From Zobellia alginiliquefaciens (GTDB taxonomy: Bacteria; Bacteroidota; Bacteroidia; Flavobacteriales; Flavobacteriaceae), in the NCBI RefSeq assembly GCF_029323795.1, contig NZ_CP119758.1:3720001-3784000 (forward strand): a stretch of 64,000 bases of DNA. The letters run 5' to 3'. The notes beneath the pieces were generated by a model. That model was not told the DNA's origin. It ran no database searches and saw only the letters and a list, made by a program, of their open reading frames with translations. Of this stretch, positions 5,738-61,109 are shown piece by piece. Position numbers and translations under genes: made by a program. How positions within the stretch are numbered: the first letter of the stretch is position 1; the number at the start of each line of letters is the position of its first letter.

Positions 5738-5898
5738 AAATGATTTTTTCAATATGTTTTGACAGAACGACACTAATTTATCTTTAAAAATACATATAAT
5801 AATATATGATGATATAAAAGAGTCAAAATATGATATTAGAAAGTCTATACCGTCTTTGAAATAGTTATAAAATTGGGGTGTATCAAGAATACATGATT
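5738..5898. promoter_or_regulatory. Divergent promoter region between the araC-type gene and the ThuA-dehydrogenase operon
   Basis: A very AT-rich intergenic segment serving two divergent genes. Two imperfect direct repeats beginning ATATGAT (5804-5810 and 5828-5834), each followed by an A/G-rich tail ending AGAGT or AAAGT, lie 24 bases apart. AraC proteins bind direct repeats about two helical turns apart, so these are candidate operators. No clean -7 box was found on either strand. Confidence 0.4.
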
Positions 5899-8800
5899 AT
5901 GGGAAATATAAAGAAGGTGTTTTTTAGCTTTTTGGTAATGGGTGTCTTATTCCTGTCCTGTAAAGGGGAAACAAAAGAAAACAAGGCTTTGGACAATCGT
6001 CCGCGGAGAATGGAACTATTGTTTTTGGGCCACAATTTAGAGCACCATAATTCTAGGGCCTATATGCCAATTTTGGCTTCAGCTTTAGCCAAGGAAGGAA
6101 TAAATCTTACTTATTCAGAGAGCCTGTCGGATATAAATTCTGAAAACCTAGACCTATATGATGGGCTAATCATATATGCTAATCACGAAGAGATTAATAG
6201 CGAACAGGAAAAAGCATTGCTCAATTTTGTAGAACAGGGCAATGGGTTTATTCCTATTCATTCGGCCAGTTTTTGCTTTAAGAATTCAGAGAAATATATT
6301 GATTTGGTCGGAGCTCAATTCGCAACGCATGAAACTGGAACTTTCACGGCAGAAATAATCGATAGTACACATGCCGCTATGCGAAATGTTAAGGAATTCA
6401 AGACTTGGGACGAGACCTATGTACATGATAAGTTAGCAGATGATATTACGGTACTAATGGAGCGTGTTGAAGGTAACTATCGTGAACCCTATACCTGGGT
6501 AAAAAAATACGGAAAAGGAAAAGTTTTTTACACCGCCCTAGGGCATGATGAGCGGACGTGGGAGAATCTGGAGTTTCTTAACTTGATCAAAGAGGGGGTT
6601 CTCTGGTCGGTGAACGATAATGTAAAACAAAATTGGGAAGTTTTTGCTAAAGATATGCCCCAATTGAAATATGAAGAAAGGCTGAATATACCCAATTATG
6701 AAAAACGGAATCCTCCTTTAAAATATCAGTTGCCGTTAGCACCTGATGAGTCGGCAAAACTAATTCAAGTACCAGCCGGTTTTGAGTTGCAGTTATTTGC
6801 AGCTGAACCGGATATAATAAACCCTATTGCCGCAAATTGGGATGAAAAAGGTAGACTGTGGGTTATAGAAACCGTAGATTATCCAAATACGGTTCGTGAT
6901 GACAAAGGGGTAGGTGACGATAAGATTAAAATATTAGAAGATACTAATGGTGATGGTCGTGCGGATAAGGTAACCGTTTTTGCTGATAAACTTAATATAC
7001 CCACAAGTTTCGTATTCCATGATGGCGGAATTATAGTTGCCCAAGCGCCCCAATTCTTATTTTTGAAGGATACGGATGGTAATGATAAAGCTGATATTAA
7101 AGAGACCCTTATAGATGGGTGGGGAGTTTTTGATACTCATGCAGGACCTTCTAACCTTCAGAACGGAATTGATAATACTATTTATGGGGTAGTTGGTTAT
7201 TCCGGGTTTTCGGGACGTATTTTTGGTAAAGATGAGCAGTTTTCTCAAGGAATGTATCATTTTGATCCCAAAAAGAAAACCTTCGATTTCTTAACGAGAA
7301 CCAGTAATAATACATGGGGATTGGGCATAACCGAAGACAATTCACTTTTTGCCTCTACAGCAAATAATACACACAGTGTTTATTTAGGTATTCCGGACAA
7401 AAATTTAAAGGGCGTAGAGGGTATACCTATAAATGGAAGTTTAAAAATAGACGGGCATTATGATATGCAACCGATAACAGGAAATATTAGGCAAGTAGAT
7501 GTTTTTGGTGGATTCACTGCTGCTGCAGGTCACCACTTTTACACCGCTAGAGAGTTTCCTAGTGCTTATTTTAATAAAGTTGCTTTTGTTTGTGAACCCA
7601 CTGGAGGTATTGTTCATATGGCAAAAATTAATGAAACAGGAGCAGGGTATAAAGAAACGGATGGAGGTAATCTTTTTGCTAGTTCTGATGAGTGGGTATC
7701 ACCAGTTGAAGCTAAAGTAGGTCCGGACGGTGCCGTATGGGTGTTGGATTGGTATAATTTTATCATTCAACATAATCCTACGCCAAACGTAGACCGAGGT
7801 GGCTATAATGCAGTTAACGGAAAGGGAAATGCGTATGAAAATCCTCTTAGGGATAAATCTAGAGGACGTATTTATAGAGTTGTTTCCAAGGCCAGCAAAT
7901 CAAATGAAAGGATAGTTTTACATAAAGAAAAACCTGAGGAATTGATAAATACACTTTCTCATAGTAATTTGTTCTGGCGTATGACCGCCCAACGCTTGTT
8001 GGTAGAAAGTGGCGATGCAACGGTATTGAAAAAGTTAGCCAAATTAATTTCTAATACCCAAGTTGATGAACTGGGTATGAATCCGTCCGTGCTACACACT
8101 TTATGGACTTTAGAAGGGTTGGGAGCTATTGAATCAGACCCTGAAATATATGAGGTGGTAACCAATTCATTGTATCACCCTTCTGCAGCGGTGCGCAAAG
8201 CAGCTATACAAATATTACCGAAAACGGATAAAACCGATGAGGCCATATTAAACGGAAAACTGTTATTCGATAAAGACCCAAAAGTTCGTTTGGCTGCCTT
8301 GCTTTATTTTACGGAGCGCCCCCCTTCATTACAGGTGGGGAACCTACTGTACGAAATGAGTACTGAAAAGGAAATTGTGGAAGACCCATGGCTGTCCCAG
8401 GCTGTGTATGCTGCAGCTAGTTCGCATAGAAAGGGGTTTATGCAGCATATTAAAGTTGATACTAGTATTACAACCGAAAAAGACGAAAGTGTAGACAGAC
8501 ATAAAATGAACCATGAAGATAGTCATTGGAAAACAATGAAATTACCTCAATATATAGAAGATGCCGGGCTGGATATGGACGGAATCATTTGGTTTCGCAA
8601 ATCGGTTGCCATTTCAGAAGAGCTTTTAAATCGTAAAGCAACCATTTCCATGGGGCCGATTGATGACTCTGATGTTGTCTATATAAACGGCGTTAAGGTT
8701 GGAGGGACCGAGCAGAGCTATGCGGATGAACGTGTATATAAAATAGCTACAGGGATTTTAAAGAAAGGAGAAAACCACATTGCCATTCGCGTAGAGGACA

Positions 8801-9399
8801 CTGGTGGAGGTGGTGGAATATATGGTAAGGAAAATCTAATGTTTTTAGCATTAGGAAACGAGAAAATAGCATTGGCCGGAGATTGGAAATATGAAGTGGA
8901 AAAAAACCTTTTACAGAAAACAGATGACCTTTTTTCTAAATCCAGCATTGCCGAAGTTTTTGCCAAAGCCTATATGCATAAAATTGATGATGAAGAAAAA
9001 AACGATGATGTTGATGAGCGACTTGTAATTAGAATGCGTACGGTTAAGAACGAAATGAAATACGATCTCTCAGAATTTGTTGTGCCAGCGGGCGAACCTG
9101 TAGAATTAATTCTGGAGAATGTAGACTTTATGCAGCACAATTTGGTCATTGTAAAACAAGGAACGATGGATAAGGTAGGTGAGGCTTCAGATAAACTGGC
9201 AGCGGACCCTAATGGAGCTAAACAAAATTATGTTCCTGAAATGGATGAGGTTCTTTTTGCCACAGCATTGGTTGATCCACAGCAAACGGTAACCTTAAAA
9301 TTTACAGCACCCATTGAGCCAGGGGAATATCCGTTTATTTGTACGTTTCCGGGGCACTGGCGCATAATGAAAGGTGTAATGAAGGTTGTAGCTAATTAA
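5899..9399 (+). CDS. ThuA / PVC-type membrane-bound dehydrogenase / azurin-like cupredoxin fusion lipoprotein
   Basis: 1166 residues from the ATG at 5899, chosen for AAGAA 9 bases upstream and a direct lead into the lipoprotein signal (FLSC, lipid Cys near 21); GTG 5878 and ATG 5893 are in-frame alternatives. Domains: ThuA-like (about 36-245), PVC-type dehydrogenase beta-propeller (about 265-620; PAGFELQLFAAEPDI, then EDTNGDGRADKVT), HEAT repeats (about 660-820), a galactose-binding-like beta-sandwich (about 840-970), and a C-terminal cupredoxin (about 1040-1166). The cupredoxin has a complete type 1 copper set: H1080, C1148, H1153 and M1157 (ICTFPGHWRIM). ThuA proteins act on keto-sugars. 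An exported sugar oxidase passing electrons to its own copper domain is inferred. It is first in an operon with the next two genes. Confidence 0.85.
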   Translation: MGNIKKVFFSFLVMGVLFLSCKGETKENKALDNRPRRMELLFLGHNLEHHNSRAYMPILASALAKEGINLTYSESLSDINSENLDLYDGLIIYANHEEINSEQEKALLNFVEQGNGFIPIHSASFCFKNSEKYIDLVGAQFATHETGTFTAEIIDSTHAAMRNVKEFKTWDETYVHDKLADDITVLMERVEGNYREPYTWVKKYGKGKVFYTALGHDERTWENLEFLNLIKEGVLWSVNDNVKQNWEVFAKDMPQLKYEERLNIPNYEKRNPPLKYQLPLAPDESAKLIQVPAGFELQLFAAEPDIINPIAANWDEKGRLWVIETVDYPNTVRDDKGVGDDKIKILEDTNGDGRADKVTVFADKLNIPTSFVFHDGGIIVAQAPQFLFLKDTDGNDKADIKETLIDGWGVFDTHAGPSNLQNGIDNTIYGVVGYSGFSGRIFGKDEQFSQGMYHFDPKKKTFDFLTRTSNNTWGLGITEDNSLFASTANNTHSVYLGIPDKNLKGVEGIPINGSLKIDGHYDMQPITGNIRQVDVFGGFTAAAGHHFYTAREFPSAYFNKVAFVCEPTGGIVHMAKINETGAGYKETDGGNLFASSDEWVSPVEAKVGPDGAVWVLDWYNFIIQHNPTPNVDRGGYNAVNGKGNAYENPLRDKSRGRIYRVVSKASKSNERIVLHKEKPEELINTLSHSNLFWRMTAQRLLVESGDATVLKKLAKLISNTQVDELGMNPSVLHTLWTLEGLGAIESDPEIYEVVTNSLYHPSAAVRKAAIQILPKTDKTDEAILNGKLLFDKDPKVRLAALLYFTERPPSLQVGNLLYEMSTEKEIVEDPWLSQAVYAAASSHRKGFMQHIKVDTSITTEKDESVDRHKMNHEDSHWKTMKLPQYIEDAGLDMDGIIWFRKSVAISEELLNRKATISMGPIDDSDVVYINGVKVGGTEQSYADERVYKIATGILKKGENHIAIRVEDTGGGGGIYGKENLMFLALGNEKIALAGDWKYEVEKNLLQKTDDLFSKSSIAEVFAKAYMHKIDDEEKNDDVDERLVIRMRTVKNEMKYDLSEFVVPAGEPVELILENVDFMQHNLVIVKQGTMDKVGEASDKLAADPNGAKQNYVPEMDEVLFATALVDPQQTVTLKFTAPIEPGEYPFICTFPGHWRIMKGVMKVVAN

Positions 9400-45167: not shown

Positions 45168-46610
45168 TTACCCTAAACTCACATAAACTTTTTTTCGCTG
45201 AACGGCATAATACCAGAACAGTAATGAAAATCCAATGGTAAGGACTGTACCGCCTATGTAGGCAATGTTGTTCTCTAGTTCAAAGCCTTCTGGAGCAATA
45301 AGTATATATGTGGTACATACCATGGTCATAAATATGGCCGGAATTAGGGTTATCCAATACAATTTGTTTTCATAAATAAGATATGCGGTAATCGTCCATA
45401 AGACCACGGTGGACAAGGTCTGGTTGCTCCAAGCAAAGTACCTCCAAATAATTCCAAAATCAATTTGAGTGAGAACAAAGGCGATGATAAATAGGGGAAT
45501 ACTGATGTAAAGCCTATTTTTAATCTGTTTCTGGTCGGTTTTAATAATATCTGATAAAATTAATCGTGCCGAGCGAAATGCGGTATCACCTGATGTAATT
45601 GGGGCTGCAACAATTCCCAATAGTGCTAAAACACCTCCTATTTTACCTAGCATGTTTAAAGAGATTTCATTAGCCGCCCAAGCTGCGTTATTTCCATTGG
45701 CCAACATAGCGTCGTTTAGACCGCCTACATTGCCAAAGAACGTCATTGCAGCGGCAGCCCAGATCAGTGCTACGATACCTTCGGTAATCATGGTGCCGAA
45801 GAAAATTTTTCTCCCTAACCGTTCATTTTTCATACATCTGGCCATAAGTGGGGATTGTGTAGCATGAAAACCAGAAATAGCTCCACAGGCAATGGTAACA
45901 AAAAGAATGGGGAAGAGCGGCGTTGCTTCCGGGTCAGACGTCATGTTCACTAAATTTGCCGGTACCAATTCCGGAATATGATAGTCTCCAAAAAAGAGGG
46001 CGATGACCAATCCAAAGGCCATTAAGAGCATGGCAATACCAAAAATAGGATACAATTTTCCTATCATTTTGTCTATTGGGAGTAAGGTGGATAAAATGTA
46101 ATATACTAGAATTATACCTACCCATATCCAAAGATTCCACATGTTTCCGGTCATGCCATCTATAATTTTTGCCGGTCCCATTAGGAAAACGGTCCCCACA
46201 AAAATTAATAATATCACCGTGAAAAAACGCATAATATGTTTCATCTGAGGCCCCAGATAGATGCCCACTATTTCGCTAATACTCAATCCGTCATGTCTAA
46301 CGGAGAGCATACCGGAAAAATAATCGTGAACGGCTCCGGCAAAGATACTTCCCAGGACAATCCACAGAAAAGCGGCAGGTCCGAACATGGCTCCCGCAAT
46401 GGCACCAAAAATGGGTCCTAGTCCCGCAATATTCAAAAATTGAATAAGAAATATACGCCAAGCCGGTAGTGGCATAAAATCAATATCATCCCGTAAACGA
46501 ATTGCAGGGGTTTCCTTTTCCGTGTCGATTCCGAAAATACGTTCTACCAGTTTGCCATAGGTATAATAACCCAGTATAAGTACAAGAACAGAAATAATGA
46601 AGGAAACCAT
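45168..46610 (-). CDS. CstA-family inner-membrane transporter
   Basis: 480 residues with about 12-13 transmembrane helices. The family start is visible: YYTYGKLVERIFGID, then FLIQFLNIAGLGPIFGAIAGAMFGPAAFLWIVLGSIFAGAVHDY, later GFHATQSPLMARCMKNERLGRKIF and APITSGDTAFRSARLILSD. It is shorter than the ~700-residue E. coli CstA because the C-terminal portion is reduced, as in many Bacteroidota copies. Known members import pyruvate and possibly peptides. A CstA inside a glycan locus is unusual; it ends the operon behind the exported FAD oxidoreductase and the SGAT-motif protein, so it may carry an oxidised small acid produced by them. Confidence 0.9.
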   Translation of the reverse strand: MVSFIISVLVLILGYYTYGKLVERIFGIDTEKETPAIRLRDDIDFMPLPAWRIFLIQFLNIAGLGPIFGAIAGAMFGPAAFLWIVLGSIFAGAVHDYFSGMLSVRHDGLSISEIVGIYLGPQMKHIMRFFTVILLIFVGTVFLMGPAKIIDGMTGNMWNLWIWVGIILVYYILSTLLPIDKMIGKLYPIFGIAMLLMAFGLVIALFFGDYHIPELVPANLVNMTSDPEATPLFPILFVTIACGAISGFHATQSPLMARCMKNERLGRKIFFGTMITEGIVALIWAAAAMTFFGNVGGLNDAMLANGNNAAWAANEISLNMLGKIGGVLALLGIVAAPITSGDTAFRSARLILSDIIKTDQKQIKNRLYISIPLFIIAFVLTQIDFGIIWRYFAWSNQTLSTVVLWTITAYLIYENKLYWITLIPAIFMTMVCTTYILIAPEGFELENNIAYIGGTVLTIGFSLLFWYYAVQRKKVYVSLG

Positions 46611-46634: not shown

Positions 46635-47753
46635 TTAGCTATTATCCTCTAAAAATTGAACTACAAGATAAGAATTCTTCTCTTTGTTAGAACCTGCAAA
46701 ATTGCGTAGATTCTTGAGAATTTCGGAGGAAATTTGCGATTTATTTTCTAAATGTGATAAAAAATCTCGTATCTGATTTTTAGTGAGCACACTTAACTGT
46801 CCGGAAATGGAGGTCACCGTAGCTTCCGATGCAGTATCTATGTGTTGCAATAACAAGCTTCGAGTGTTGATGTCAATATAAGGTAAAGCATCCCAAAAGG
46901 GTTGCATCTTATTCGGTTCTTTTGAAAAGGATTCCGCTAAATTTTTAATGATGAACGAACGTACTAGTGGAATACCCGACTTAAAAAGCTTTGATATTCT
47001 TGAAAAATTGGTGTCATATTGATTTTTGGTCAGATTTTCAAGGGCATACATTTGATAGTTAATGTTCTCATTGTTCAACATGCGAACCAACATTCCTTCA
47101 GTTTGTTGTGCAACGGTAAATGCTTTTATTTGGTCTTTAATATCACCATGCACCAGGTGCCAGGCTACATAACAGGAGTAAAGGGCACCGGAGACAACAG
47201 ATTCTTTTACCTCTTTTATAGTGGCACCGGACAAAGCATCTACGCCTTCTATTGTTGAAGGCTTCGGTTTTGTGACCAGCTCATCTATAGCCCTTCTTTT
47301 TAAAATGGAATTGTGGTCTTTCAGCAGTTCATGAAGCTTCCAGTAGTCGGAGAACAAAAATTCGTCATGGTCATGTTTGGTCAACGGTTCTTCGCTAGAT
47401 CGGTCAAAACCGGCGTAATCGCCCAAAAGCGTCCAATACAAAGTAATATGCATCAGTCTACAATCGCCATCGGCACAAACTGGGGTAATAATATTTGAGG
47501 AATACAGCACCGGTGCATCCGAATTATCTTGAAAAATATTTACTTTTTGAGCACCTACGGAATCCACAACAATTTCCATTGGGGTTTCTGATCTATTTAG
47601 AATAGTGCCTTGTTTCCAACTCAACACAAAAAACTCCGGACTCTTATCCAAAACCGTTTTTTCCGAACTATTAGGAAAAGAAACAGCCGACCCAAACTGA
47701 GCTTCACAAAGATGGGTTAGAAGTAAAAGGATGCCTAATGCAAGTCTTCTCAT
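46635..47753 (-). CDS. Exported protein with FMN-attachment-like SGAT motif and HEAT-like C-terminus
   Basis: 372 residues with a signal peptide (LALGILLLLTHLCEAQ). The segment GVDALSGATI (171-179) matches the D..SGAT motif of FMN-binding domains, in which the threonine (here T178) carries phosphoester-linked FMN added by ApbE. Upstream are a cysteine pair (C93, C98 in PVCADGDC) and HDHDEFLFSDYWKL. Downstream is a GALYSCYVAWHLVHG helix and a ~170-residue helical region like HEAT repeats. The first half is not a textbook FMN-binding domain, so flavinylation is a prediction. Its start overlaps the stop of the exported FAD oxidoreductase (ATGA), so the two should be made in step and may exchange electrons. 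Confidence 0.6.
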   Translation of the reverse strand: MRRLALGILLLLTHLCEAQFGSAVSFPNSSEKTVLDKSPEFFVLSWKQGTILNRSETPMEIVVDSVGAQKVNIFQDNSDAPVLYSSNIITPVCADGDCRLMHITLYWTLLGDYAGFDRSSEEPLTKHDHDEFLFSDYWKLHELLKDHNSILKRRAIDELVTKPKPSTIEGVDALSGATIKEVKESVVSGALYSCYVAWHLVHGDIKDQIKAFTVAQQTEGMLVRMLNNENINYQMYALENLTKNQYDTNFSRISKLFKSGIPLVRSFIIKNLAESFSKEPNKMQPFWDALPYIDINTRSLLLQHIDTASEATVTSISGQLSVLTKNQIRDFLSHLENKSQISSEILKNLRNFAGSNKEKNSYLVVQFLEDNS

Positions 47754-49543
47754 TTTTTAGACGTAGGAATCTTTTCGTATTTCTGTTCTTCTATTAAATC
47801 TAGATATTCCTGTAAATAACCTGTGTAAATTTCACGTGGCATAACCTCGTATTTTTTACAAAGGGAAGCCGCATAACCAACGGCAGCACCCATTTGCCCG
47901 GTAGTAAGCATAACACGTGGCCCACCGAGCCCTGCGTGGGAGCAGCTGAAATTACGACCGGCCATAAAAAGGTTGCTAATGTTTTTAGAATACAGGCTTC
48001 TGTACGGAATGTAATATTGCGGCCCTCTATAAAATAAGGCTTCCGAAATGAAATCTGGATTTTTCTCGTCCTCTAATACCGTTTGGTAATGAACGTCTAC
48101 CGCTCTTTTCTCGATAACGACGCCATCGGGAAATTCACGTCCTTCTTTAGCATCGTTAAAGGTAAAAATATGGTCGCCCACTAGTCTTCTCGATTCCCGT
48201 TTTCCAACCAAGTATGAAACCCACTCCAATTTTCGGTTCTTGTTTACCTCGTCTTTTTTGGCATTGGAAAATGAACCATAAATAGCACGTAGCATGTGGT
48301 CGCGTATTTCTTCGGCATCGTCAATTTGGCTCAGGTCGTTTCTACTGAACTCCCATTGCCATTCGCCATTGACTTCTGCATAATCCTTTGATACCGGCAT
48401 GGCCCAAGGTACTTCTGGAAAACTCTGCGGACTATCCGTGTCTTTAGATCCCCAAAGAACGGAAGAACCCATAACAGCATTATCCGCTTCTTTTGGACTC
48501 CATAATTCACCGTGCTCTTCCCAATATTCTCCGTAGGTATCTACGCTTTCACGACCGTACGAGAATTCGGCGCCAGCCCAAAAACCTATCCAGCCATCAC
48601 CTGTAGAGTCTACAAAATAGGGTGCTGTAAACCGTTTTCTTTCCCCTGTAAACGTTTGTCTGGCATCTACATATTTTACACTGTTTTCTTCCGAAATAGC
48701 ATCATAAGCACGCCAGTTTAGGAATAAATCTATATTATCATAGCTCTTAACATTTTCGTCTCTTTTTTGCTGGTCCAGTTTAGATTCTGCCGAACCGTTA
48801 GGGTAGTGCTTGGTGTCTATTTTTTTAAGGATACGCTCAAAATTGCCATAAATACCTTCGGTATGAACACGTATCTCTTCACTGGCGTTACCCCCTAAAA
48901 CTGGGCGATCATGAATCAATGCCACCTTTAAACCTTGTTCTGCACCGGCTATTGCTGCAGCGCAGCCTGCCAATCCTCCGCCTACAACCACTAAATCATA
49001 GGTTTTTAATTCCTCTGGTGCATTTGGTTCCGCAGCTAGTTCTTGACGCCAAGCCGCTAACTTTTTAGGAGATGATGGAGGTGTTGTTTTTTTGGTAGAA
49101 AAATAGATGGCATCACAGCGGCCGTTAAAACCAGTAAGGTCAACTAACTCTATATGTGTTTCATTTTTCTTATTGATTTTTGTTTCGCCTGCATATTGCC
49201 AGCCCCAACCGGAACGTGTGCCCAATACCGTATCTAGTACGGCCTCGTTCACTTTTAACTGAAATTTTCCAGGAGCTTCCCATTCCCCTGGAACCCAGTT
49301 CATAGTGCGCACCCAAATATGGTACGAACCGGATTTATTGAAATTAACTTTTGTGGAAGCATTTTTTACGGGTTTTCCCATACCATGTGCATTCAGATAA
49401 GGAGAACCCATTTGCTCAACGAATTGTGGGTCTACCAGCCAACCACCCGGATTATCAAAGCTTTCGGCTTCAACGAGTACGTCTTGAGCGAACAAAGAAA
49501 TTGAACTAAAGAGGAGCAGGGTAACAATCAGTAACTTTTTCAT
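47750..49543 (-). CDS. Exported FAD-dependent oxidoreductase with N-terminal carbohydrate-binding module
   Basis: 597 residues from the ATG at 49543 (an ATG 9 bases upstream is the alternative). Signal peptide KKLLIVTLLLFSSISLFAQ. Residues about 22-150 form a beta-sandwich module (VLVEAESFDNPGGWLVDPQF, GSYHIWVRTMNWVPGEWEAPGKFQLKVN, THIELVDLTGFNGRCDAIYF). The FAD_oxidored domain follows: LVVVGGGLAGCAAAI, PVLGGNASEEIRVH, and LFMAGRNFSCSHAGLGGPRVMLTTGQMGAAVG. An exported flavoenzyme needs a periplasmic electron partner, and the overlapping downstream gene encodes a probable FMN-carrying protein. It is first in an operon whose promoter shares a tandem repeat with susC. The substrate is probably a sugar. 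Confidence 0.85.
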   Translation of the reverse strand: MKKLLIVTLLLFSSISLFAQDVLVEAESFDNPGGWLVDPQFVEQMGSPYLNAHGMGKPVKNASTKVNFNKSGSYHIWVRTMNWVPGEWEAPGKFQLKVNEAVLDTVLGTRSGWGWQYAGETKINKKNETHIELVDLTGFNGRCDAIYFSTKKTTPPSSPKKLAAWRQELAAEPNAPEELKTYDLVVVGGGLAGCAAAIAGAEQGLKVALIHDRPVLGGNASEEIRVHTEGIYGNFERILKKIDTKHYPNGSAESKLDQQKRDENVKSYDNIDLFLNWRAYDAISEENSVKYVDARQTFTGERKRFTAPYFVDSTGDGWIGFWAGAEFSYGRESVDTYGEYWEEHGELWSPKEADNAVMGSSVLWGSKDTDSPQSFPEVPWAMPVSKDYAEVNGEWQWEFSRNDLSQIDDAEEIRDHMLRAIYGSFSNAKKDEVNKNRKLEWVSYLVGKRESRRLVGDHIFTFNDAKEGREFPDGVVIEKRAVDVHYQTVLEDEKNPDFISEALFYRGPQYYIPYRSLYSKNISNLFMAGRNFSCSHAGLGGPRVMLTTGQMGAAVGYAASLCKKYEVMPREIYTGYLQEYLDLIEEQKYEKIPTSKK

Positions 49544-49576
49544 AAGTGGCATGGAATAGAAATAGTGAAAATAAAA

Positions 49577-49791: not shown

Positions 49792-52716
49792 CTAATGCCA
49801 CTCACTTAGCACAAAACTGTTAAGCCAAACTGCTTTTTGGTCTGTTCCTTTAAAAATGAATTGAATGTTACTTTTTCCATCGGATTCAAAATATATCTCG
49901 GTGGGTTGAAACGGCGAAGTTTGCATGGTCTCGCCCTCGGTAACGGTAACGTTCGATAGGGTAGAGGTTCCATTGGCATCTGAAATGGTCACATCCAGCT
50001 CTTTGGTATACGGAATTTTGTAAATTCTATATGTAGCCATTTTTTCTTGATTGGGGTCCATACTATCTGTATTGGTTCTTGGTGCATGATGAACCGTATT
50101 CAGTTTATATTTTCCTTTTTTCAAACCAGAAAATTTTAAGGTCAGCCCCTCTTTTGAAACTCCTAAAACCCCTTCGCCATGGGCAAATCCATATTTACCT
50201 ATGACGTTGATTTCGCCCAACCAGCGTGTAGAGCTGGCATCGCCATTACTTTGAACAGTAGCTGAAAAACCACCAAGTTCTTCAAATTGTTTGGTAGAGG
50301 CAGCATTATCTTTTCCATTCCACGGAATCCAATCAAACTGCACCAATTGTTCATCTCCACCTAAATCTACCCGAATGCTCTCAAAATCATAAATAGGTTC
50401 GGCAGTAGAAGTAATCATGTCAAAATTCGCTTTTTCGGTAGTAACTGTTTCTGTTGCTGATTTAAGTCCCTTTGCCTTTGCTGTGATGGTTATCTGCCCA
50501 GGAGAGTTTCCTGCACGAATCAAAACAGGAGCTACTCCATATTCCGTTTGCATAGGGTTAGAGCCAATACCTTCCTTGTCTCCAATTATTTCGGCATCAC
50601 CCTTTACTGAGAATTCTACAGCTACATCTGCATCACCAAGCAAGATGCCATTTTTGTCCACTATTTTGGCATATGCCACCAGAATATCGGAACCATCGGC
50701 AACGAACTTACGTCCTTTCATATCTGGCTCTAGGATGATTCTATAGGCTTCTTCCGGAGTTTTTGTAGTTTCGGAAACCACAATTTTACCATCTAACAAT
50801 CCATTGGCGGTCAGTGTTCCTTTTTCATATTTTGAAATGGAAAATACAAATGGTGCGTGTTTTAAATATTTGTACTTATCCGCTCGCGAAGGATGTTCCT
50901 CGGCAATTGTTTTACCGTTTACTTTAAGCTGTACTTTTTCCGAATTACTAAAAATCACCACTTCTTTTGTGTCTTCATTCCAATCGGACGCAATATGTAA
51001 ATAGGGGTAATCCGTTAGTTCAGCTGGGTACCAAGCCAAGTTTTCCTCAGGTCTAGGATAGCGAAAGGCCGTCATGAAACCACCTCTACTTCTATTTTTA
51101 GGTGTTTTAGTAGGGTGAAAAGTATAGTAGGCATGGGCTGTCCACGAAATAAGTCCCAGTTTCATTGGGTCGTTCATGTATTCATTAACCGCCTCCGGAC
51201 CGCGACGGCCTTCCATGGCAACCATAGGCTCATCTCCGCTCCAATAATAAGGGCCGTACACCATTTGACCATAAATATCGGTCAAGCCGGAAGTCTGCCA
51301 GCCTGTCCACCTACTACTTTGTGATGCGGTATACCTAACCGGATCTTCCTGTTTGATAACATTATGAGCCCTTGGAACATAACCTCTATGGTTTATACCA
51401 GCCCCCCAAATAAAAACGGACGTATGGTTTCTGTGGTTGCGCACCATTGCTCTGGCGGACTTTTCAAAATTATCGAACCAAGCTTCGTTACCTATTGACA
51501 TCCACGTAGGGGCTTCTTCATACACCAGCATACCGAGTTCGTCACAGGCTTCCAACAACGAATTGTCATGCGGATAATGTGCCGTACGAATGACGTTCAT
51601 TCCCAATTTTTTTAATTGAAGAATATCTTTGTAATGCAGTGAATTGGGCATGGCATCCCCAATAAAACCATAGTGCTGGTGTAAATTGGTTCCAATGAGT
51701 TTTAGAGGTTTTCCGTTGAGAACAATACCGTCATGATTGTTCATTTCAATCTTACGGAATCCGGTTTTTACCTCTATCTGATCTACTACTTTATCGGCTT
51801 CTAAAACCAAAGTATTTACACGGTATAGGTTAGGTTCATCTATAGACCAAAGCTTCAAGTTGTCTTCAATACTTCCTATTACATTAAATTGAACATCTGC
51901 ACCGGAAGCAATGGTTTTTGTCTGCTCCAATTTTAAAACCACCAAACCTTTATCATCAACAACCCTATTTATAACCGTAGTTATTTTAGGTTGATTATTT
52001 TCGTTCCGAACCGTAGTTTTAATATTAATCGTTGCATTCATATTCACCGGATCTACGGTGGGGGTGGTAATGTATTGGCCTGCGTTTTCGGCTTCCCAAT
52101 TAAAGGTGATATGTAACGGATTGGTTTCGACCAAATACACATCGCGATACAGACCGGCAAATTTAATATAGTCCATAGGGCCTGGGTCCGGCGGCACGTC
52201 TTCGCGCTTGCGGTTATCGGCTAAAACGGTAACTAAATTTTTTGCATCTCGATTTACAAAATCGGTAATATCAAAATGGAAAGGGGTGTACCCACCAACG
52301 GCATGCTGACCTATGTGTTTGCCATTTACCCATACATCCGTTACTTGGTGAACGCCTTCAAATTCAAGAAAAACTTTGCTTTGGGAGTTGTCCGAAACCT
52401 CAATTTCTTTTCGGTACCATCCTACTTTTCGCATAAAAGTATCTTGGTATTTATCATCTTGAACGCCGTTCAAGTCCATTGTGGTGAGCTCCAGCCCGTG
52501 AGGAACGTTTACGGTTTCCCAGCTGGAATCATCAACATCCGTCTTAAAAAAATCGGCATCAGGATGACCCAAATGAAATTTCCACCCTTGATTAATATTG
52601 AGTTTGGTACGATCTGTTTTTTCAAAACCTTCGGGTAAGGTCGTTTGTTGTGCATGAGCTGTAAGATGAAATAGCAGCGTTATGAGTATAGATTTTACTA
52701 TGAGTTTATTATGCAT
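49792..52716 (-). CDS. GH2-family protein lacking the usual acid/base glutamate
   Basis: 974 residues with a signal peptide (KSILITLLFHLTAHAQ). The GH2 sugar-binding domain (INQGWKFHLGHPDADFF; WETVNVPHGLELTT; VWVNGKHIGQHAVGGYTPFHFDI), Ig-like domain and TIM barrel (VLNGKPLKLIGTNLHQHYG) are all recognisable, followed by about 350 residues of beta-rich C-terminal domains, one resembling DUF4982. Where GH2 enzymes have WGxGNE, this one has WGAGINH (N442, H443), so the acid/base Glu is replaced by His. E502 (MVAMEGRRG) fits the nucleophile. It may use another proton donor or a substrate with a good leaving group. It is the last gene before a canonical terminator. Confidence 0.87.
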   Translation of the reverse strand: MHNKLIVKSILITLLFHLTAHAQQTTLPEGFEKTDRTKLNINQGWKFHLGHPDADFFKTDVDDSSWETVNVPHGLELTTMDLNGVQDDKYQDTFMRKVGWYRKEIEVSDNSQSKVFLEFEGVHQVTDVWVNGKHIGQHAVGGYTPFHFDITDFVNRDAKNLVTVLADNRKREDVPPDPGPMDYIKFAGLYRDVYLVETNPLHITFNWEAENAGQYITTPTVDPVNMNATINIKTTVRNENNQPKITTVINRVVDDKGLVVLKLEQTKTIASGADVQFNVIGSIEDNLKLWSIDEPNLYRVNTLVLEADKVVDQIEVKTGFRKIEMNNHDGIVLNGKPLKLIGTNLHQHYGFIGDAMPNSLHYKDILQLKKLGMNVIRTAHYPHDNSLLEACDELGMLVYEEAPTWMSIGNEAWFDNFEKSARAMVRNHRNHTSVFIWGAGINHRGYVPRAHNVIKQEDPVRYTASQSSRWTGWQTSGLTDIYGQMVYGPYYWSGDEPMVAMEGRRGPEAVNEYMNDPMKLGLISWTAHAYYTFHPTKTPKNRSRGGFMTAFRYPRPEENLAWYPAELTDYPYLHIASDWNEDTKEVVIFSNSEKVQLKVNGKTIAEEHPSRADKYKYLKHAPFVFSISKYEKGTLTANGLLDGKIVVSETTKTPEEAYRIILEPDMKGRKFVADGSDILVAYAKIVDKNGILLGDADVAVEFSVKGDAEIIGDKEGIGSNPMQTEYGVAPVLIRAGNSPGQITITAKAKGLKSATETVTTEKANFDMITSTAEPIYDFESIRVDLGGDEQLVQFDWIPWNGKDNAASTKQFEELGGFSATVQSNGDASSTRWLGEINVIGKYGFAHGEGVLGVSKEGLTLKFSGLKKGKYKLNTVHHAPRTNTDSMDPNQEKMATYRIYKIPYTKELDVTISDANGTSTLSNVTVTEGETMQTSPFQPTEIYFESDGKSNIQFIFKGTDQKAVWLNSFVLSEWH

Positions 52717-52735: not shown

Positions 52736-54994
52736 TTAGTTTTTGCTTTCCAGTTCTTCTATGGTCCAATAATCTTCTCGGTCTTTTTGGTCTCTTCTGA
52801 TTTTGGCAACCTGCCAAGGAGCAACGCCTCTTTCATTGTTCAAGTGCGTTCTGATATAGGTGACGACGCTTGCAATGTAATCATCATCTTGTTGTTTCAT
52901 ACCTGCCATAACACCGGAATATTCTTTGCCATCAACAGGTCCCGTAAGACCATTTAGAAGAATTTTCACGGGAATATCCCATTTTTTGGCGGTCACCCTG
53001 GGAGAACCGATCAATGAAGGAGCCATGCCTTCAATACCATTACCATTTTTACCATGACAGGACGCACATAAATTTTTAAAATGCGTGTATCCCTTTACAA
53101 TTCTGCTGCGGGTATGAGTATTCTGAAGCACGTGTTTCTTCTTGATTTGCTCTATTTCTAGAGGTACTTCTTTTAGACTCTCTTCACCAATGACCGCAAT
53201 AGCTTCGTTTGATGGATTTGAGGAAATGACCTGGGCAATGGTTTTGTTTCCTGCTTTGTCTTTTGCAGACCTTAGAGAAAGCACCAGTTGTTGCAACACT
53301 TCTGGGTTTGTATCATTTTTTAATGTCTGGACCGCTTCAATAACTTCTTGATCACCGGATTTTAGCAAAGGTTCGGCTACCCGAAGCGCTGCCATACGTA
53401 CCCGGGCATCATCATCTTGCAGAGCTGATAGAATAAGAGATTTGTCAATGGCATCAAGACCATCTAGAGCCCAGATAGCATGTAGTCTACCCAATGCATA
53501 ATCCGTATCACCTAGCATTGAACCCATAAAAGGGTCACCGCCAGTTACAATATCTTTTAAATCCGGAACTATGGATTTGTCTTCCTTGAGTACCAAAAGT
53601 TTTTGAGCGGTAAGACGGTACCAACCGTTAGGGTGATGCAGATAATCCAATAATTGGGCATTTGATTTGTTCAAGAGGTTTTCCTGTTTGGCAGGTGCAA
53701 TTTCTTCATGAACTATTCTGTAAATTCTACCTTTTCCAATATTCTTGTCAAATCCTTTCCGTTCTACCACAGGACGTAAAAAACTACCTTTTCTAACCCA
53801 GTTGCCCTCTTGAATAATTCCGCGGTACATGTCTACAACGTACAAACAACCGTCAGGTCCGGTTTGAGTGTCAACTGGTCTAAAGTTGGTATCTGTGGAT
53901 GCCAGAAACTCTGTTTCACCATACGGATTGGAAAGTACTTTTTTTCCGTTCACTAGGTTCACTTTCGCTCTACGAATCAAGCGCCCAACTGGTTCGGGAA
54001 TGAAAAGGTCGCCATACATGGGCAATTTATCGCCTAAAAATACCGACTGCCCGCAACTTGCGGTAAAATGGTTGAGTGTACCGTCTTCTCGAAGCCTATG
54101 GAGACCGCCCTGCACATCTGGTGTTCCAATAATTGGCCACACTTTTTCAAAACCTTCTTCCCATTTGCCTTCCATTTCTAGATTACCATAATAGGGATGT
54201 TGTTGATAGCCCAATGCAGGGGTTTCGCCACCTGCGCTGGAATAATAAATCTGACCTACTTCGTCTTGCGTCATGCCCCATTGACCCGAAGGTGCATCCA
54301 TTAAAGTATCAACCTCCATTTCACCCTTTGTAAATCTATAGCGCAAAGAGCCATTGGATTGATAAAGGTAATTATCCAGCCCCCAAATCATTGTGGCGGA
54401 TTGGTGCTCTAGATTTGCATTGTCACGTTTATTATTTTCTAGGATGAGCTTTTTTTCATCGGCAACATTGTCGCCGTCCGTATCCCTGTACGTGTAAAGG
54501 CTGCGGTTGTATGTCTCGCCAATGATCACCCTGTCGTCTAACGGAAGTAGAATTCTCGGCAGAATCAAACTATCAACAAAAACAGTACTCTTATCCATTT
54601 TGCCGTCTCCGTCCAAATCCTCAAGCACAGAAACTCGGCTCCACGGTTCATTTTCGTCCGTACCATCTATATCTTGCATATAGGTCAGCATTTCGGCAAC
54701 ATACAGTTTGCCATCGGGAGCCCATGCAATAGTTACGGGTTCATTGATCATGGGTTCACTGGCAACCAGCTCCATTCTATAGCCTTCAGGCAGGTGCATA
54801 GTTTTCATACTTTCCTCGGGCGACATAAAAGTGACCGGCGGGTCTTTTACAAGTGTAGGTTTAGAGTAAATAACATCTGCGTAAACCGGTTTTTCTTTTT
54901 TACAACTGCCGAGGGAGTTTAGTAAAATAGCGGAAATAAAAAATACGTGGTTGTTGGTAAAGATTTTTTTGAGTTGGTAAGGGAATTGAGTCAT
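52736..54994 (-). CDS. PVC-type membrane-bound dehydrogenase fused to cytochrome c, lipoprotein
   Basis: 752 residues from the ATG at 54994, which gives a normal lipoprotein signal (NSLGSC, Cys 31); an ATG 60 bases upstream adds a Lys/Thr-rich tail. The dehydrogenase propeller (about 65-430) starts PEGYRMELVASEPMINEPVTIAWAPDGKLYVAEM and contains EDLDGDGKMDKSTVF. HEAT-like repeats follow (about 455-600). The C-terminal cytochrome c has C643-x-x-C646-H647 (NLCASCHG) and VMAGM as a likely axial methionine. The enzyme would oxidise a sugar-like substrate outside the cytoplasm and pass electrons to its own haem. It is the counterpart of the copper-domain fusion at 5.9-9.4 kb. It sits 19 bases upstream of the atypical GH2 gene. 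Confidence 0.88.
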   Translation of the reverse strand: MTQFPYQLKKIFTNNHVFFISAILLNSLGSCKKEKPVYADVIYSKPTLVKDPPVTFMSPEESMKTMHLPEGYRMELVASEPMINEPVTIAWAPDGKLYVAEMLTYMQDIDGTDENEPWSRVSVLEDLDGDGKMDKSTVFVDSLILPRILLPLDDRVIIGETYNRSLYTYRDTDGDNVADEKKLILENNKRDNANLEHQSATMIWGLDNYLYQSNGSLRYRFTKGEMEVDTLMDAPSGQWGMTQDEVGQIYYSSAGGETPALGYQQHPYYGNLEMEGKWEEGFEKVWPIIGTPDVQGGLHRLREDGTLNHFTASCGQSVFLGDKLPMYGDLFIPEPVGRLIRRAKVNLVNGKKVLSNPYGETEFLASTDTNFRPVDTQTGPDGCLYVVDMYRGIIQEGNWVRKGSFLRPVVERKGFDKNIGKGRIYRIVHEEIAPAKQENLLNKSNAQLLDYLHHPNGWYRLTAQKLLVLKEDKSIVPDLKDIVTGGDPFMGSMLGDTDYALGRLHAIWALDGLDAIDKSLILSALQDDDARVRMAALRVAEPLLKSGDQEVIEAVQTLKNDTNPEVLQQLVLSLRSAKDKAGNKTIAQVISSNPSNEAIAVIGEESLKEVPLEIEQIKKKHVLQNTHTRSRIVKGYTHFKNLCASCHGKNGNGIEGMAPSLIGSPRVTAKKWDIPVKILLNGLTGPVDGKEYSGVMAGMKQQDDDYIASVVTYIRTHLNNERGVAPWQVAKIRRDQKDREDYWTIEELESKN

Positions 54995-55254
54995 ATACTT
55001 TTTTTTGAGTCGGTACTCGTTGTTAGTTTTTGTTTGGGTCTTAGTAAACATCAATACAAATTTTCTCCAGAGGTAAAAATAATCATAGCACTTTGCTGAA
55101 TTTGTTACATATGATCAGATGGCTATATCAAATGGATTTTTAGTGATTTTTCCTTTGTAGAAAGCTCCTGAACATCATTTTTGTTCCTTTCGGAAATGTT
55201 AATTAGTTCAATTTGATTTTAAAACATTTGCAGATTCATCTAGTATAATTTTAT

Positions 55255-55589: not shown

Positions 55590-58064
55590 TTACTCATGAA
55601 GCAACTTTGAATACGCTATAATCAGCTTACCTTCCTTTGTTTTTCCAAGTAGTTTTCCTGCAAAATTGTTTTCGGACAATCCGTTTCCCCTGCCGTTAAA
55701 TTCAATAATCAGGTCTTTACCTTTTTTCTTGGTCTTGGTTACTTTTGATCCTCTTCCAAAATCGACTTCCTCTGAAGCACCAAATCGTAAAGAGGGCAGT
55801 TCTATATCGTTTTGGGCGTCAAAATCCGCTTCTGAATGTATCAAGACCCTTATCTTCTTTGTTGATGGGCCTATTTTCTGTTTGTTCAAGAGCTGAATGC
55901 GCTTGTGTACGGTAAGGGGAACAATGATGTTTTTTGAGCTGTGCTTATCTCGTGCTAAATCGTCTGCTTTTGGTACATCTATAACAGCCAATGAAAGATG
56001 CGTTGCCCTACCATGTTCGTCTTGAAGTACATGTGGTCGTTCCAATTTATACCAATGGGTTCTAGAACCATCTTCATAGGAAGTATTGTCTGGAGTGTAC
56101 GCCGTACCGGGGTTGAATTTCCAATGGATACCATCAGGTGAACGTAAGTAGATGGCCCGATAGTCCCAAAAAGCATTGATCAACATATGATATTGCACAT
56201 CATCTTTCCAAAGCACTGGGTCTTCGTAATTGGAGTTTCGGTATTTTTCTGGAATGATTTTGTTATATCTAATTTGGTCAGTAAGTACGGTATAGGGCCC
56301 TAATGGATCATCGGTCTTACTTTGCATCATTTCTCCTGCTTTTGTTACCCACAGAAAACGCCCATCTTCTTGTTGCACACCCGATAAGTTTCTGTAATAC
56401 CGATAGGATAGTTTTTTGTTTTCATTCGTACTTTTCCAGTCTACGGTCATAATTCCTAACCGTTTCCAAGGGCCGTTCATAGATTTTGAAGTGAAAAGTG
56501 TAGCTTCCCAATCTACTAAAGAGTAGAAGAGATATGAGCCATCATTTAACAAAACTATATCTGGATTGTGCCCCAACCCATTATGAAAGTCATATACTGT
56601 TTCTTCTTTCACTTTATAGGGTCCTGTAGGCGTTTCGGAAACCACATGGGCAACGGTTGAATTGGGCCACTCCCAATGACCTTTGGTTGCGTTTGCTGGC
56701 CACCTAGTTACCAACATATGGTATTTGTTGTCTTTGTCTTTTACAGGTCTTCCTCCCCAGTAACTCCATTCCGGGTCTTCAATTCCGTTGTCTGCATCTC
56801 GTGGAAGAACAGCATCCGCTCCCCAGAGGTCGGTTCTTAGTTTTTTGTGTATGGGCATCGGAAGAATTAGGTCGCTAAAAGAAGTTCCCAAAACAGTTCT
56901 TACCTTGGCTTTTATCATTTTTGAGGCTCTACTCTTATTGCCGGAATAATCGTGAGCGAAAACTATATAAGAATTAGTTACGTCCTTTTTTGGTGTAAAG
57001 TCTATATATTCAGTGTCATTTATGTCATGTGCTATTTGTCTTAGATTCTTGCCTTCTGTATCACCTCTATAGATTGAATAGTTGGCCACATCAATATCAA
57101 CACTTTTGTTCCACTCCAACTTAATTTCAGTATTAAGGGCTTCAATTTTTAGGGCGGTTGGAGGAGCGGGTGATGCATTATCAATTTTCTTGAGATGTAC
57201 TTTGTTAGAGCCTGTAGACTCAGAAGTATCAAGGCGAGTAACTACGTAATTATAAGCAATACCGTTGATGAGGTTAGTGTCGGTAAAACTAAAATTTTGG
57301 GTAGTCGTGAGTTTTTGATACGCTCCATTTTTTCCCTTACTTCGGTAGATTGAAAATTGAGTGTCTGAATTCGCTTTTTCATCTTTCCAATCCAATTGAA
57401 TACCTTTTTCAACGATTTCTCCTGACAGCGTAGGACCTCTTTTCTCGGGAGTTTGCAGGCTCAGGTTTACATAATCCAGATAAACCTTAACGTCTTCACT
57501 TGAGTAAAATGAAACCCGTACACTTGGGGCGCCCGCTAGGGCATCTTCTTTTGTTACGGTATAATTTCCTGAGAAGTGTTCAACCGTTTTGTCTGAGCCA
57601 ATGAGCTTTACTTTTTCGACTAAAAGTCGCGCTTGTTCACCAAAGAAGAGATGTAATGAAACCGTACCGTTGCTGATATATTCTAAATCGGCACCCATAC
57701 TCCAATGTAATACATCACCTTCCTTTAAGATTCGGTAATTCGAGTTGGTGTTTAGTGGTTTCGAATGGATATAAGCATAGTCAAAAGAACTAAAGTACTT
57801 TCCTTGAACCAAGCCCATGGAATGTCCTTCTTTTTGAGGTTGGTTAGAGGGCGTCCAGAAAGGAGACTGTAACCCAAGACGCCAAGAACCGGCATTTATC
57901 AAATTAAAATCACCATCATTTACATTAGGGTAGGGGGCGTTATCCCCAAGAAGAACGGTTTGGGCCGATACACCCAGATTCCAAAAAATAAAGAAAATAA
58001 TAGAACATAACTTAAATGTAATTGCTAGATTTTCTTTTTTTAGATGGTAATTTAGATGTATCAT
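55590..58064 (-). CDS. Multidomain hydrolase: binding module, two fibronectin III domains, five-bladed propeller
   Basis: 824 residues with a signal peptide (IIFFIFWNLGVSAQ). A beta-sandwich binding module (about 36-205; GDNAPYPNVNDGDFNL, VKVYLDYVNLSL) is followed by two fibronectin type III domains (about 208-297 and 300-390). A propeller domain (about 420-720) then carries WSYWGGRPVKDKDNKYHMLVTRW, HVVSETPTGPYK, GHNPDIVLLNDGSYLFYS and YEDPVLWKDDVQYHMLINAFWD. The propeller is homologous to the lipoprotein at 24.8-25.9 kb. About 100 residues of beta structure end the protein. The fold and acidic residues suggest a glycoside hydrolase related to GH43 or GH117, but the family is not assigned. 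It is 45 bases downstream of the GH29 gene. Confidence 0.75.
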   Translation of the reverse strand: MIHLNYHLKKENLAITFKLCSIIFFIFWNLGVSAQTVLLGDNAPYPNVNDGDFNLINAGSWRLGLQSPFWTPSNQPQKEGHSMGLVQGKYFSSFDYAYIHSKPLNTNSNYRILKEGDVLHWSMGADLEYISNGTVSLHLFFGEQARLLVEKVKLIGSDKTVEHFSGNYTVTKEDALAGAPSVRVSFYSSEDVKVYLDYVNLSLQTPEKRGPTLSGEIVEKGIQLDWKDEKANSDTQFSIYRSKGKNGAYQKLTTTQNFSFTDTNLINGIAYNYVVTRLDTSESTGSNKVHLKKIDNASPAPPTALKIEALNTEIKLEWNKSVDIDVANYSIYRGDTEGKNLRQIAHDINDTEYIDFTPKKDVTNSYIVFAHDYSGNKSRASKMIKAKVRTVLGTSFSDLILPMPIHKKLRTDLWGADAVLPRDADNGIEDPEWSYWGGRPVKDKDNKYHMLVTRWPANATKGHWEWPNSTVAHVVSETPTGPYKVKEETVYDFHNGLGHNPDIVLLNDGSYLFYSLVDWEATLFTSKSMNGPWKRLGIMTVDWKSTNENKKLSYRYYRNLSGVQQEDGRFLWVTKAGEMMQSKTDDPLGPYTVLTDQIRYNKIIPEKYRNSNYEDPVLWKDDVQYHMLINAFWDYRAIYLRSPDGIHWKFNPGTAYTPDNTSYEDGSRTHWYKLERPHVLQDEHGRATHLSLAVIDVPKADDLARDKHSSKNIIVPLTVHKRIQLLNKQKIGPSTKKIRVLIHSEADFDAQNDIELPSLRFGASEEVDFGRGSKVTKTKKKGKDLIIEFNGRGNGLSENNFAGKLLGKTKEGKLIIAYSKLLHE

Positions 58065-59846: not shown

Positions 59847-61109
59847 TTACTTTTGATTTAATTGCTTTGTCTCATTAGCTACACGCTCACGTTGTTCGGC
59901 ATTTAAACCGTGTTGTAGCAAGTATTCTAACCTAGGTGTGTTATGATGGCGTTTCATTTGTTTGTCATCCACGTCTAGGCTTAGATCGCAATCGAAACGG
60001 ACTAGAATAACATGATTTTTTTTCCAATCGCGATTAGGATTTGCAAAGTGAGAAATACCCCAAGTAATACCACGACCATCCTTTGTGTCCGTGAAAGCAT
60101 CTGGAACAAAAGGCCCGCCGGCATTGGGCATCATTTCAACCATAGCCGCAATTTCAAAATTCACCCAATCTTCGGCATATTGAATCGTATTGGCTTCATT
60201 ACCATCTCTAATGGCAAAAGCGGCAACTCCTTTTTTAAACGGAAACAAGGTAGTCTCGTGTCCGGAGTTCATAATCGGGTTCAAAGGATGTTTTTTAAAC
60301 GGACCTAACGGGTCATCTGCTATGGCAAGACCGTGCATGCGTACGTTGTTCTTTCCATTAACTTTTCCAAAATCCGATTTGTAGTACAGGTAAATTTTTC
60401 CATTATGGACGATGGGGTAGGGATCATGAATTGAAAATTGGTCCCACGAGCCAGGAGCCCCATTGGGAATCACTTCTTTCTTAAAAGGTGTCCACGGACC
60501 GTTTGGAGAATCGGCATAAGAAACGGCAACGGGACAATTGTCTCCGCCACTTTTTCCCGGGGCTTCAGAAAAAGCTTGGTAGTATAAATAGTATTTCCCT
60601 TTCCACTTTAAAATATCAGTAGTGGTAACCGAGCGCCAGCCAACTTGTGGTTTTGGAGGTCTCGGAACGGCAACACCTTGTTCTTCCCATGTGAATCCAT
60701 CTTTAGAGGTTGCATAGAAAATATCTGATAAATCCCAATCTGCAGAAGGTATGGTATCATTAGATTCTTCAACTCTTGATATTCCTACTGGCGCCACTGG
60801 AGTTTCACGGTGGGTGTACCAAATATAATATTGGCCATTTTCAAAAATCACCTTTGAAGGGTCACGCCGGGTTATAGTACCATCGTTCCCATTGTAATCA
60901 AAGCCTTTAAGTTCCGTATATTTAAACTGAGTGTAAAGTTCATTGCTTTCTTGACGAGGGCCTAAATAATTATCATAGTTCCGTTGTAAAGCAGCGCTTA
61001 AAGGTCTGTTGGGTTTCTCCTCTGGCAAGTCATAAGGGAACGCCTTTTCTTGGCCTTGAGCCATAATAAAAGTGCTCAAACTTAATGTTAGTAAAATATA
61101 TTTTTTCAT
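59847..61109 (-). CDS. GH117 family exo-hydrolase, secreted (alpha-1,3-L-neoagarooligosaccharide hydrolase-like)
   Basis: 420 residues. The signal peptide (LLTLSLSTFIMAQGQ) has no lipobox, so this copy is probably soluble, unlike the lipoprotein copy at 23.4 kb. The N-terminal KPNRPLSAALQRNYDNYLG and ELYTQFKYTELKGFDYNGNDG are hallmarks of GH117. Catalytic residues by family analogy are D83 (TRRDPS), D229 (SIHDPYPI) and H284-E285 (NSGHETTLF). The C-terminal helical tail (RLEYLLQHGLNAEQRERVANE) may serve dimerisation. Family activity is release of 3,6-anhydro-L-galactose from neoagarobiose-type ends. It is the second gene of the right-hand block visible here, after the Asp-box protein, and the deleted-gene remnant follows it. 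Confidence 0.94.
   Translation of the reverse strand: MKKYILLTLSLSTFIMAQGQEKAFPYDLPEEKPNRPLSAALQRNYDNYLGPRQESNELYTQFKYTELKGFDYNGNDGTITRRDPSKVIFENGQYYIWYTHRETPVAPVGISRVEESNDTIPSADWDLSDIFYATSKDGFTWEEQGVAVPRPPKPQVGWRSVTTTDILKWKGKYYLYYQAFSEAPGKSGGDNCPVAVSYADSPNGPWTPFKKEVIPNGAPGSWDQFSIHDPYPIVHNGKIYLYYKSDFGKVNGKNNVRMHGLAIADDPLGPFKKHPLNPIMNSGHETTLFPFKKGVAAFAIRDGNEANTIQYAEDWVNFEIAAMVEMMPNAGGPFVPDAFTDTKDGRGITWGISHFANPNRDWKKNHVILVRFDCDLSLDVDDKQMKRHHNTPRLEYLLQHGLNAEQRERVANETKQLNQK

Follow-up and report, generated by a model that had tools for sequence, protein, structure and literature searches.

The window, the whole 64,000-nucleotide stretch of DNA that was analysed from the marine seaweed degrader Zobellia alginiliquefaciens, contains an open reading frame at positions 49792–52716 encoding a 974-residue glycoside hydrolase family 2 (GH2) protein of beta-galactosidase type with a histidine at the acid/base position. 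The gene and all of its features described below lie on the reverse strand. The protein begins with a likely Sec signal peptide (approximately residues 1–23, ending in LTAHAQ and judged by eye; 52648–52716), followed by the GH2 sugar-binding domain (residues 42–199, PF02837; 52120–52593) and the GH2 immunoglobulin-like domain (residues 216–321, PF00703; 51754–52071). The TIM barrel extends over approximately residues 329–547 (51076–51732), of which PF02836 covers 329–484 only, the end of the barrel being a putative one. The C-terminal portion contains DUF4982 (residues 584–646; 50779–50967) and GH2 C-terminal domain 5 (residues 669–755; 50452–50712). The matches to GH2_N, GH2, GH2_C, DUF4982, and GH2_C5 all exceed their Pfam cut-offs, and the scores for the first three (76.7, 49, and 72 bits, respectively) place the protein in GH2 by similarity.

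The gene is flanked by genes for a FAD_oxidored protein (47750–49552, reverse strand) and a DUF7133-HEAT-cytochrome c protein (52736–55054, reverse strand), both of which are also its neighbours in the four other Zobellia loci compared. Outside Zobellia, relatives of these two proteins were not found beside the gene in the loci compared. An oxidise-then-eliminate mechanism, suggested by the two neighbours, was set aside as a general explanation because they adjoin the gene only in Zobellia among these loci. A further DUF7133 protein, with ThuA and cupredoxin parts, is encoded at 5878–9399. The same locus encodes a GH29-type alpha-L-fucosidase family protein (PF01120; 58110–59642, reverse strand) and an anhydro-galactosidase-type protein (59847–61109, reverse strand), the latter recognised from its PDB matches. 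Its nearest solved relatives are 4U6D (E 5.8e-199) and 4U6B, with the anhydro-galactosidases 4AK5 and 3P2N at E of about 1e-56, and its family is presumably GH117. GH117 itself is described as using a histidine general acid in the available text of a QM/MM study (PMC11574756), so that two candidates for a histidine acid lie within about 12 kb. Also encoded in the window are GH97, sulfatases, two GH2s of the ordinary kind, and, judged by eye, a SusC/SusD-like pair. An 824-residue protein at 55590–58064 (reverse strand) matches no Pfam family and has only a chance-level match among solved structures; it is kept in two other Zobellia loci and by eye resembles a propeller-type glycosidase. At 45168–46610 (reverse strand), a CstA-like carbon-starvation transporter (by eye) lies between a GntR-type regulator and glycosidase genes.

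Residues 437–445 of the GH2 protein read WGAGINHRG. The Asn-Glu acid/base pair is replaced by N442-H443, within the altered motif N442-H443-R444-G445 (51382–51393), while the nucleophile position, E502 as located by sequence alignment, is kept within PMVAMEGRRG. The H443 codon is CAT (51388–51390), the E502 codon is GAA (51211–51213), and the next glutamate after H443 is E457. The original prediction of a GH2 gene at 49792–52716 with N442-H443 and an intact E502 thus agrees with the coordinates, the codons, and the alignment. It had also held that the swap is not a feature of the whole locus, and the other two GH2s of the window indeed carry intact pairs (E572/E653 and E409/E499). Across the genome, all seven additional GH2 ORFs that were retrieved, these two among them, have Asn-Glu and a glutamate in the nucleophile column. 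Its description of the Asn-Glu pair as near-invariant across GH2 was, however, too strong. According to the available text of a 2025 paper on GH2 subfamilies (PMC12243196), the nucleophile is invariant, and the acid/base pair reads SD in GH2_16, SE in GH2_14, and TV, NA, or NQ in GH2_19, while GH2_21 has Trp or Lys/Arg/Asn at the acid/base position with another glutamate proposed as a stand-in. The pair is consequently usual and not required, as characterised GH2_21 and GH2_16 enzymes lack it (PMC12243196, available text). Nowhere does the main text of this paper, as available, use the word "histidine", and a histidine at the acid/base position goes unmentioned in it; no report of a histidine at this position of GH2 was found among the titles and abstract openings listed by searches of the open-licence PMC literature. 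A lambda-carrageenan GH2 (PMC12549532) was considered and rejected, since it is an ordinary beta-galactosidase by its authors' account in the available text.

Collection of the INHRG homologues yielded a single clade of 25 distinct sequences (hereafter the NHRG clade), and the variant is therefore not limited to one sequence, an outcome that the original prediction had left open. The N-H-R-G motif and E502 are present together in all 25 (the window protein and 24 relatives, 34–96% identical) but in none of the 21 other GH2s or the 12 GH2_21-like proteins aligned with them, a distribution beyond chance; the 21 are the GH2s passing E 1e-60 and 600 residues, weaker GH2s being excluded. The usual GH2 pair is absent from the clade, which reads N-H in 25/25, and the glutamate nucleophile after strand 7 is E502 in 25/25, with glutamate in the same column of the sequence alignment in all 33 other rows. 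Omitted from the 25 rows were L001 and L062 (the window gene again), the partial copies L065 and L066, the exact copies L039 and L040, copies in flank loci, and L041, a near-copy from Zobellia barbeyronii that is likewise NHRG. The six matches ranked directly below the clade in the family-level search all read N-E (lower matches were partly fetched), as do, at the aligned site of the first folding alignment, all 28 rows of other GH2s (24 from viral contigs). Because close relatives share the histidine, the swap looks like a settled alternative design and not a broken gene.

The searches place the clade in a limited set of hosts. Full-length relatives (E < 1e-180, 40–100% identity) occur in 13 of 199 genomes at the family level, the source genome included, and at least 2 of 395 genomes of the class sample hold clade relatives at E ≤ 1e-150, at most two candidates per genome being scored. 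In the phylum sample, three of 395 genomes contain a match to the degenerate DNA pattern for W-G-(A/G)-G-(V/I/L/M)-N-H-R-G, with no hit for the backwards control pattern among the matches listed. The phylum pattern search added G702, and the class search added G402, which belongs to another family. Additionally, the plasmid collection contributed four Persicobacter proteins from two strains and one protein from Catenovulum, a gammaproteobacterium. The known hosts are therefore Flavobacteriaceae, another family of Bacteroidia, Persicobacter, and one gammaproteobacterial plasmid. The whole Catenovulum gene encodes 981 residues from a GTG start with no internal stop and contains GINHRG and MEH, although its row (L067) comprises only the last 610 residues in the alignment and trees. 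Upstream of the NHRG gene on a Persicobacter plasmid (L068, 1406–14306) are repeated cassettes of an RHS-core protein, a small protein, and an AAA ATPase. Queries of viral contigs with the clade, with the group reading (L/P)-N-E-(S/T) (hereafter the N-E-S/T group), and with two other GH2s recovered no relative; a broader GH2 query of these contigs gave 31 loci, which were taken as controls. Two types can be distinguished within the clade, one with INHRGY and AMEG and the other with INHRG(P/S) and MEH or CEH.

The residues surrounding the active site fall into a retained and a changed set. N442, H443, R444, G445, E502, R377, H380, and W525 are kept in 25/25 clade rows. D354 (51655–51657), a clade-specific acid after barrel strand 1 and a candidate partner for H443, is present in all 24 clade rows with a letter at this column and in none of the 21 other GH2s, and the whole Catenovulum gene reads GDA here. 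At the end of barrel strand 3 lie E400 and E401 (51514–51519); E401 is present in 25/25 clade rows and shared with 8 of the 21 other GH2s, and E400 is present in 24/25, with Ala in L020. Residues that vary little or not at all within the clade but are rare outside it include D354, Y399, E400, W413, G440, H443, R444, G445, V447, W470, M485, Y487, W562, and E566, while those common to the clade and ordinary GH2s include N344, H346, R377, H380, N442, E502, and W525; columns 445–500 are aligned less certainly because loop lengths differ. Judged from the alignment, the retained set would be what the first, covalent half of the retaining mechanism needs, and the changes appear to lie largely around the proton donor. 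Both hhalign and MAFFT place H443 opposite the glutamate, whereas phmmer against 5EUV treats the ESPD of 5EUV as an insertion following the Asn, so that H443 is matched to the next Asn. This disagreement at the gap beside H443 means that a loop deletion removing the glutamate is also possible. Under either alignment, His directly follows the invariant Asn.

The histidine appears to have arisen once. In trees built with the columns of both motifs removed (quick searches without bootstrap), the 25 NHRG rows lie on one side of a branch with an SH-aLRT of 100, and the His state requires one change on the tree, a count as small as this being seen in none of 500 shuffles. Both trees place the 13-row N-E-S/T group as sister to the NHRG clade, with SH-aLRT values of 89 in the first tree and 97 in a second that adds the 12 GH2_21-like proteins, which were retrieved by a query based on 6HPD. 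These proteins form a separate clade in the second tree (SH-aLRT 100). Forcing them together with the NHRG clade costs 13.3 log-likelihood units with a p-AU of 0.059, so that separation of the two is favoured but not proven. The GH2_21-like rows (L106–L117) have Trp in seven cases, Glu in four, and Gln in one at the acid/base column; since His is not among these residues, a separate change to His would be required even if the two groups formed one clade.

Purifying selection acts on the gene. Whole-gene dN/dS is 0.029–0.081 in four of six comparisons and not computable against L043 and L040. Three of the four have a dS near saturation, which leaves the L038 value (dN/dS 0.081, dS 0.28) as the only firm one. 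The barrel (residues 330–545) is the most conserved of three parts of the protein in five of the six comparisons. Against L039, L042, and L044 it is 94.9–97.2% identical, compared with 79.0–89.1% for the flanking parts, and it is also the most identical part against L043 and L040. Against the nearest relative, L038, the barrel is instead the least conserved part (95.8% versus 96.3 and 97.8%). Synonymous divergence from L038 is uneven: dS reaches 0.99 in the barrel but 0.22 and 0.09 in the remaining two parts, a pattern reminiscent of recombination in the barrel. Among five N-E relatives, the barrel is the most conserved part in 10/10 pairs. This same order of conservation indicates that constraint on the NHRG barrel is not relaxed.

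The predicted structure was examined using two AlphaFold models with mean pLDDT values of 64.8 (model 1) and 69.5 (model 2). The alignment for model 1 (A4) mispaired the E502 column in distant rows, and in that for model 2 (A7) distant rows were used only up to strand 4. Confidence is below 50 at residues 487–577 in model 1 and, in model 2, at residues 466–577 and at 441–444, which is the motif itself. In both models, strand 4 ends at residue 439, three residues before N442. The models are consistent with a clan GH-A barrel with flanking beta domains, with best VIA-align Z scores of 35.1 and 38.5 and a second barrel half of low confidence, and the VIA-align matches listed are GH2 chains. The match to 5EUV has Z 34.1 over 456 aligned residues (rmsd 2.6) for model 1 and Z 35.9 over 439 (rmsd 3.2) for model 2.

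Gene neighbourhoods across genera offer some insight into the substrate. The commonest companions of the NHRG gene are a GH29 family and one S1 sulfatase family, each in 9 of 15 genera; these are raw counts, seaweed degraders being gene-rich in both, and they come from flanks of 17–33 kb for most loci and 64 kb for the window, with L063 and L064 out of the count. Other loci carry GH30, GH28, GH16-type, or DUF5060 proteins. Genes for L-fucose catabolism accompany the NHRG gene in a few loci: an L-fuconolactonase-like amidohydrolase occurs in four genera (its representative scores 265.6 bits, below the cut-off of 400), and fucP occurs in L057 (501.1 versus a cut-off of 280.4). A tagaturonate reductase relative is likewise present in four genera (its representative scores 685.6 bits, above the cut-off of 359). 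In the available text of a Zobellia transcriptome paper, loci with sulfatases and fucosidases are assigned to fucose-containing sulfated glycans (PMC9296495). From these neighbourhoods, the target is likely, but unproven, to be a fucose-containing sulfated algal glycan, perhaps with uronic acids. The anhydro-galactose substrate considered in the original prediction is weakly supported; the GH117-type protein of the locus points toward it, but across genera GH29 and S1 sulfatases accompany the gene most often.

Taken together, the retained and changed residues suggest a mechanism, which is put forward tentatively and to which we give slightly less than an even chance: H443 would act as the acid/base of a retaining glycosidase within a His-carboxylate dyad. 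The NHRG clade, which is a distinct group within GH2 in both trees, would then consist of exported, exo-acting, retaining beta-glycosidases. E502 would attack C1 to form the glycosyl-enzyme, and H443, in the place of the acid/base Glu, would protonate the leaving group and subsequently activate water. A clade-constant carboxylate, most likely D354 or E401, would set the protonation state of H443 to complete the dyad. Additionally, R444 together with H443 would change a negative charge to a positive charge beside the +1 subsite. Such a charge would favour anionic leaving groups, whether sulfated or uronic, from a fucose-containing algal glycan. The wider proposal, that a His-carboxylate acid/base arose once in a retaining GH2 of seaweed-associated Bacteroidota and a gammaproteobacterial plasmid and is adapted to anionic leaving groups, is offered with a little more reserve.

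The main rival to this dyad, which we regard as unlikely though worth serious attention, is that another carboxylate (D354, E400, or E401) has taken over as acid/base, with H443 and R444 only binding substrate, a reading with which the data are also compatible. GH2_21 provides a precedent, as another glutamate is thought to replace the lost one (PMC12243196, available text), and every clade member has D354 and E401, with E400 in all but one. However, columns 407 and 411 hold no conserved Glu in the clade, where the counterpart of T2KN75 E402, the GH2_21 site after strand 3, was placed by eye; E401 also occurs in 8/21 GH2s with a normal Glu, and the invariance of H443 would need a separate reason. 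The original prediction had offered three options, namely another proton donor, a substrate that needs none, and a binding protein, and among these an active enzyme is favoured over a binding protein because all 25 sequences retain the nucleophile, R377, N442, and W525 and the barrel is constrained as in the N-E relatives. A pseudo-glycosidase that binds and holds algal oligosaccharides without cleaving them thus appears quite unlikely, despite the loss of a canonical catalytic residue and the example of the GH2_19 members with TV, NA, or NQ, which are uncharacterised and may be inactive (PMC12243196, available text).

Two further explanations preserve activity and dispense with the dyad. It is improbable, in our estimation, that the leaving group needs no protonation or that a small molecule supplies the base. 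Plant myrosinase shows the same pattern of a kept nucleophile and a lost acid, and there a small molecule supplies the base, but the neighbouring genes point to the breakdown of polysaccharides, whose sugar leaving groups are poor. A glycoside phosphorylase, in which His in place of Glu tolerates phosphate, seems highly improbable. Such a role for His is reportedly known from GH3 N-acetylglucosaminidases (Macdonald 2015), and the Glu-to-His change with its adjoining Arg would give a more positive site; nevertheless, the likely signal peptide would place the protein outside the cytoplasm, where phosphorolysis would be unlikely to pay. The His-carboxylate dyad remains our preferred, if tentative, reading.

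Few glycosidase families have been studied as thoroughly as GH2, and the acid/base Glu is an obvious criterion for calling its members active or inactive. A conserved clade with His-Arg in place of this Glu provides a testable case of a retaining enzyme that changes its proton donor and suggests that judging GH2 activity by the acid/base Glu alone can mislead. Furthermore, the NHRG clade directs attention to an open enzymatic step in how algal glycans, probably fucose-rich and sulfated ones, are degraded.

Among known systems, the closest comparison is with the GH2 beta-galactosidase of Paracoccus sp. 32d (5EUV/5LDR) and the N-E-S/T group, which have the same domains and barrel as the clade; 5EUV lies outside the trees and is tied to this group by its motif and as the best PDB match of group members. 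EEAPTW and IWGAGINHRG of the window protein correspond to EEIPGW and IWGVRINES in 5EUV. 5EUV and the N-E-S/T group keep the acid/base Glu, whereas the NHRG sequences carry His-Arg-Gly, and the segment leading up to their nucleophile is shorter. The clade resembles GH2_21 in that the acid/base Glu is replaced and the nucleophile kept, the GH2_21 residue being Trp and also Lys, Arg, or Asn (PMC12243196, available text). In contrast to the NHRG clade, the GH2_21-like proteins lack H346 and N344, and His is absent from their acid/base column. In this comparison 6HPD, on which a literature search gave nothing relevant, is taken to be the GH2_21 protein T2KN75, a probable identity, since the 6HPD-like proteins (71–78% identity) read WEGGNW. 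GH117, GH3 NagZ, and GH156 belong to other families, and their dyads come from structures or QM/MM, unlike the proposed NHRG dyad. The QM/MM paper on GH117 supports a His/Asp general acid and draws parallels with GH3 NagZ and GH156 in its available text (PMC11574756), and in all three a histidine paired with a carboxylate serves as the general acid, as is proposed here for H443 in the NHRG clade.
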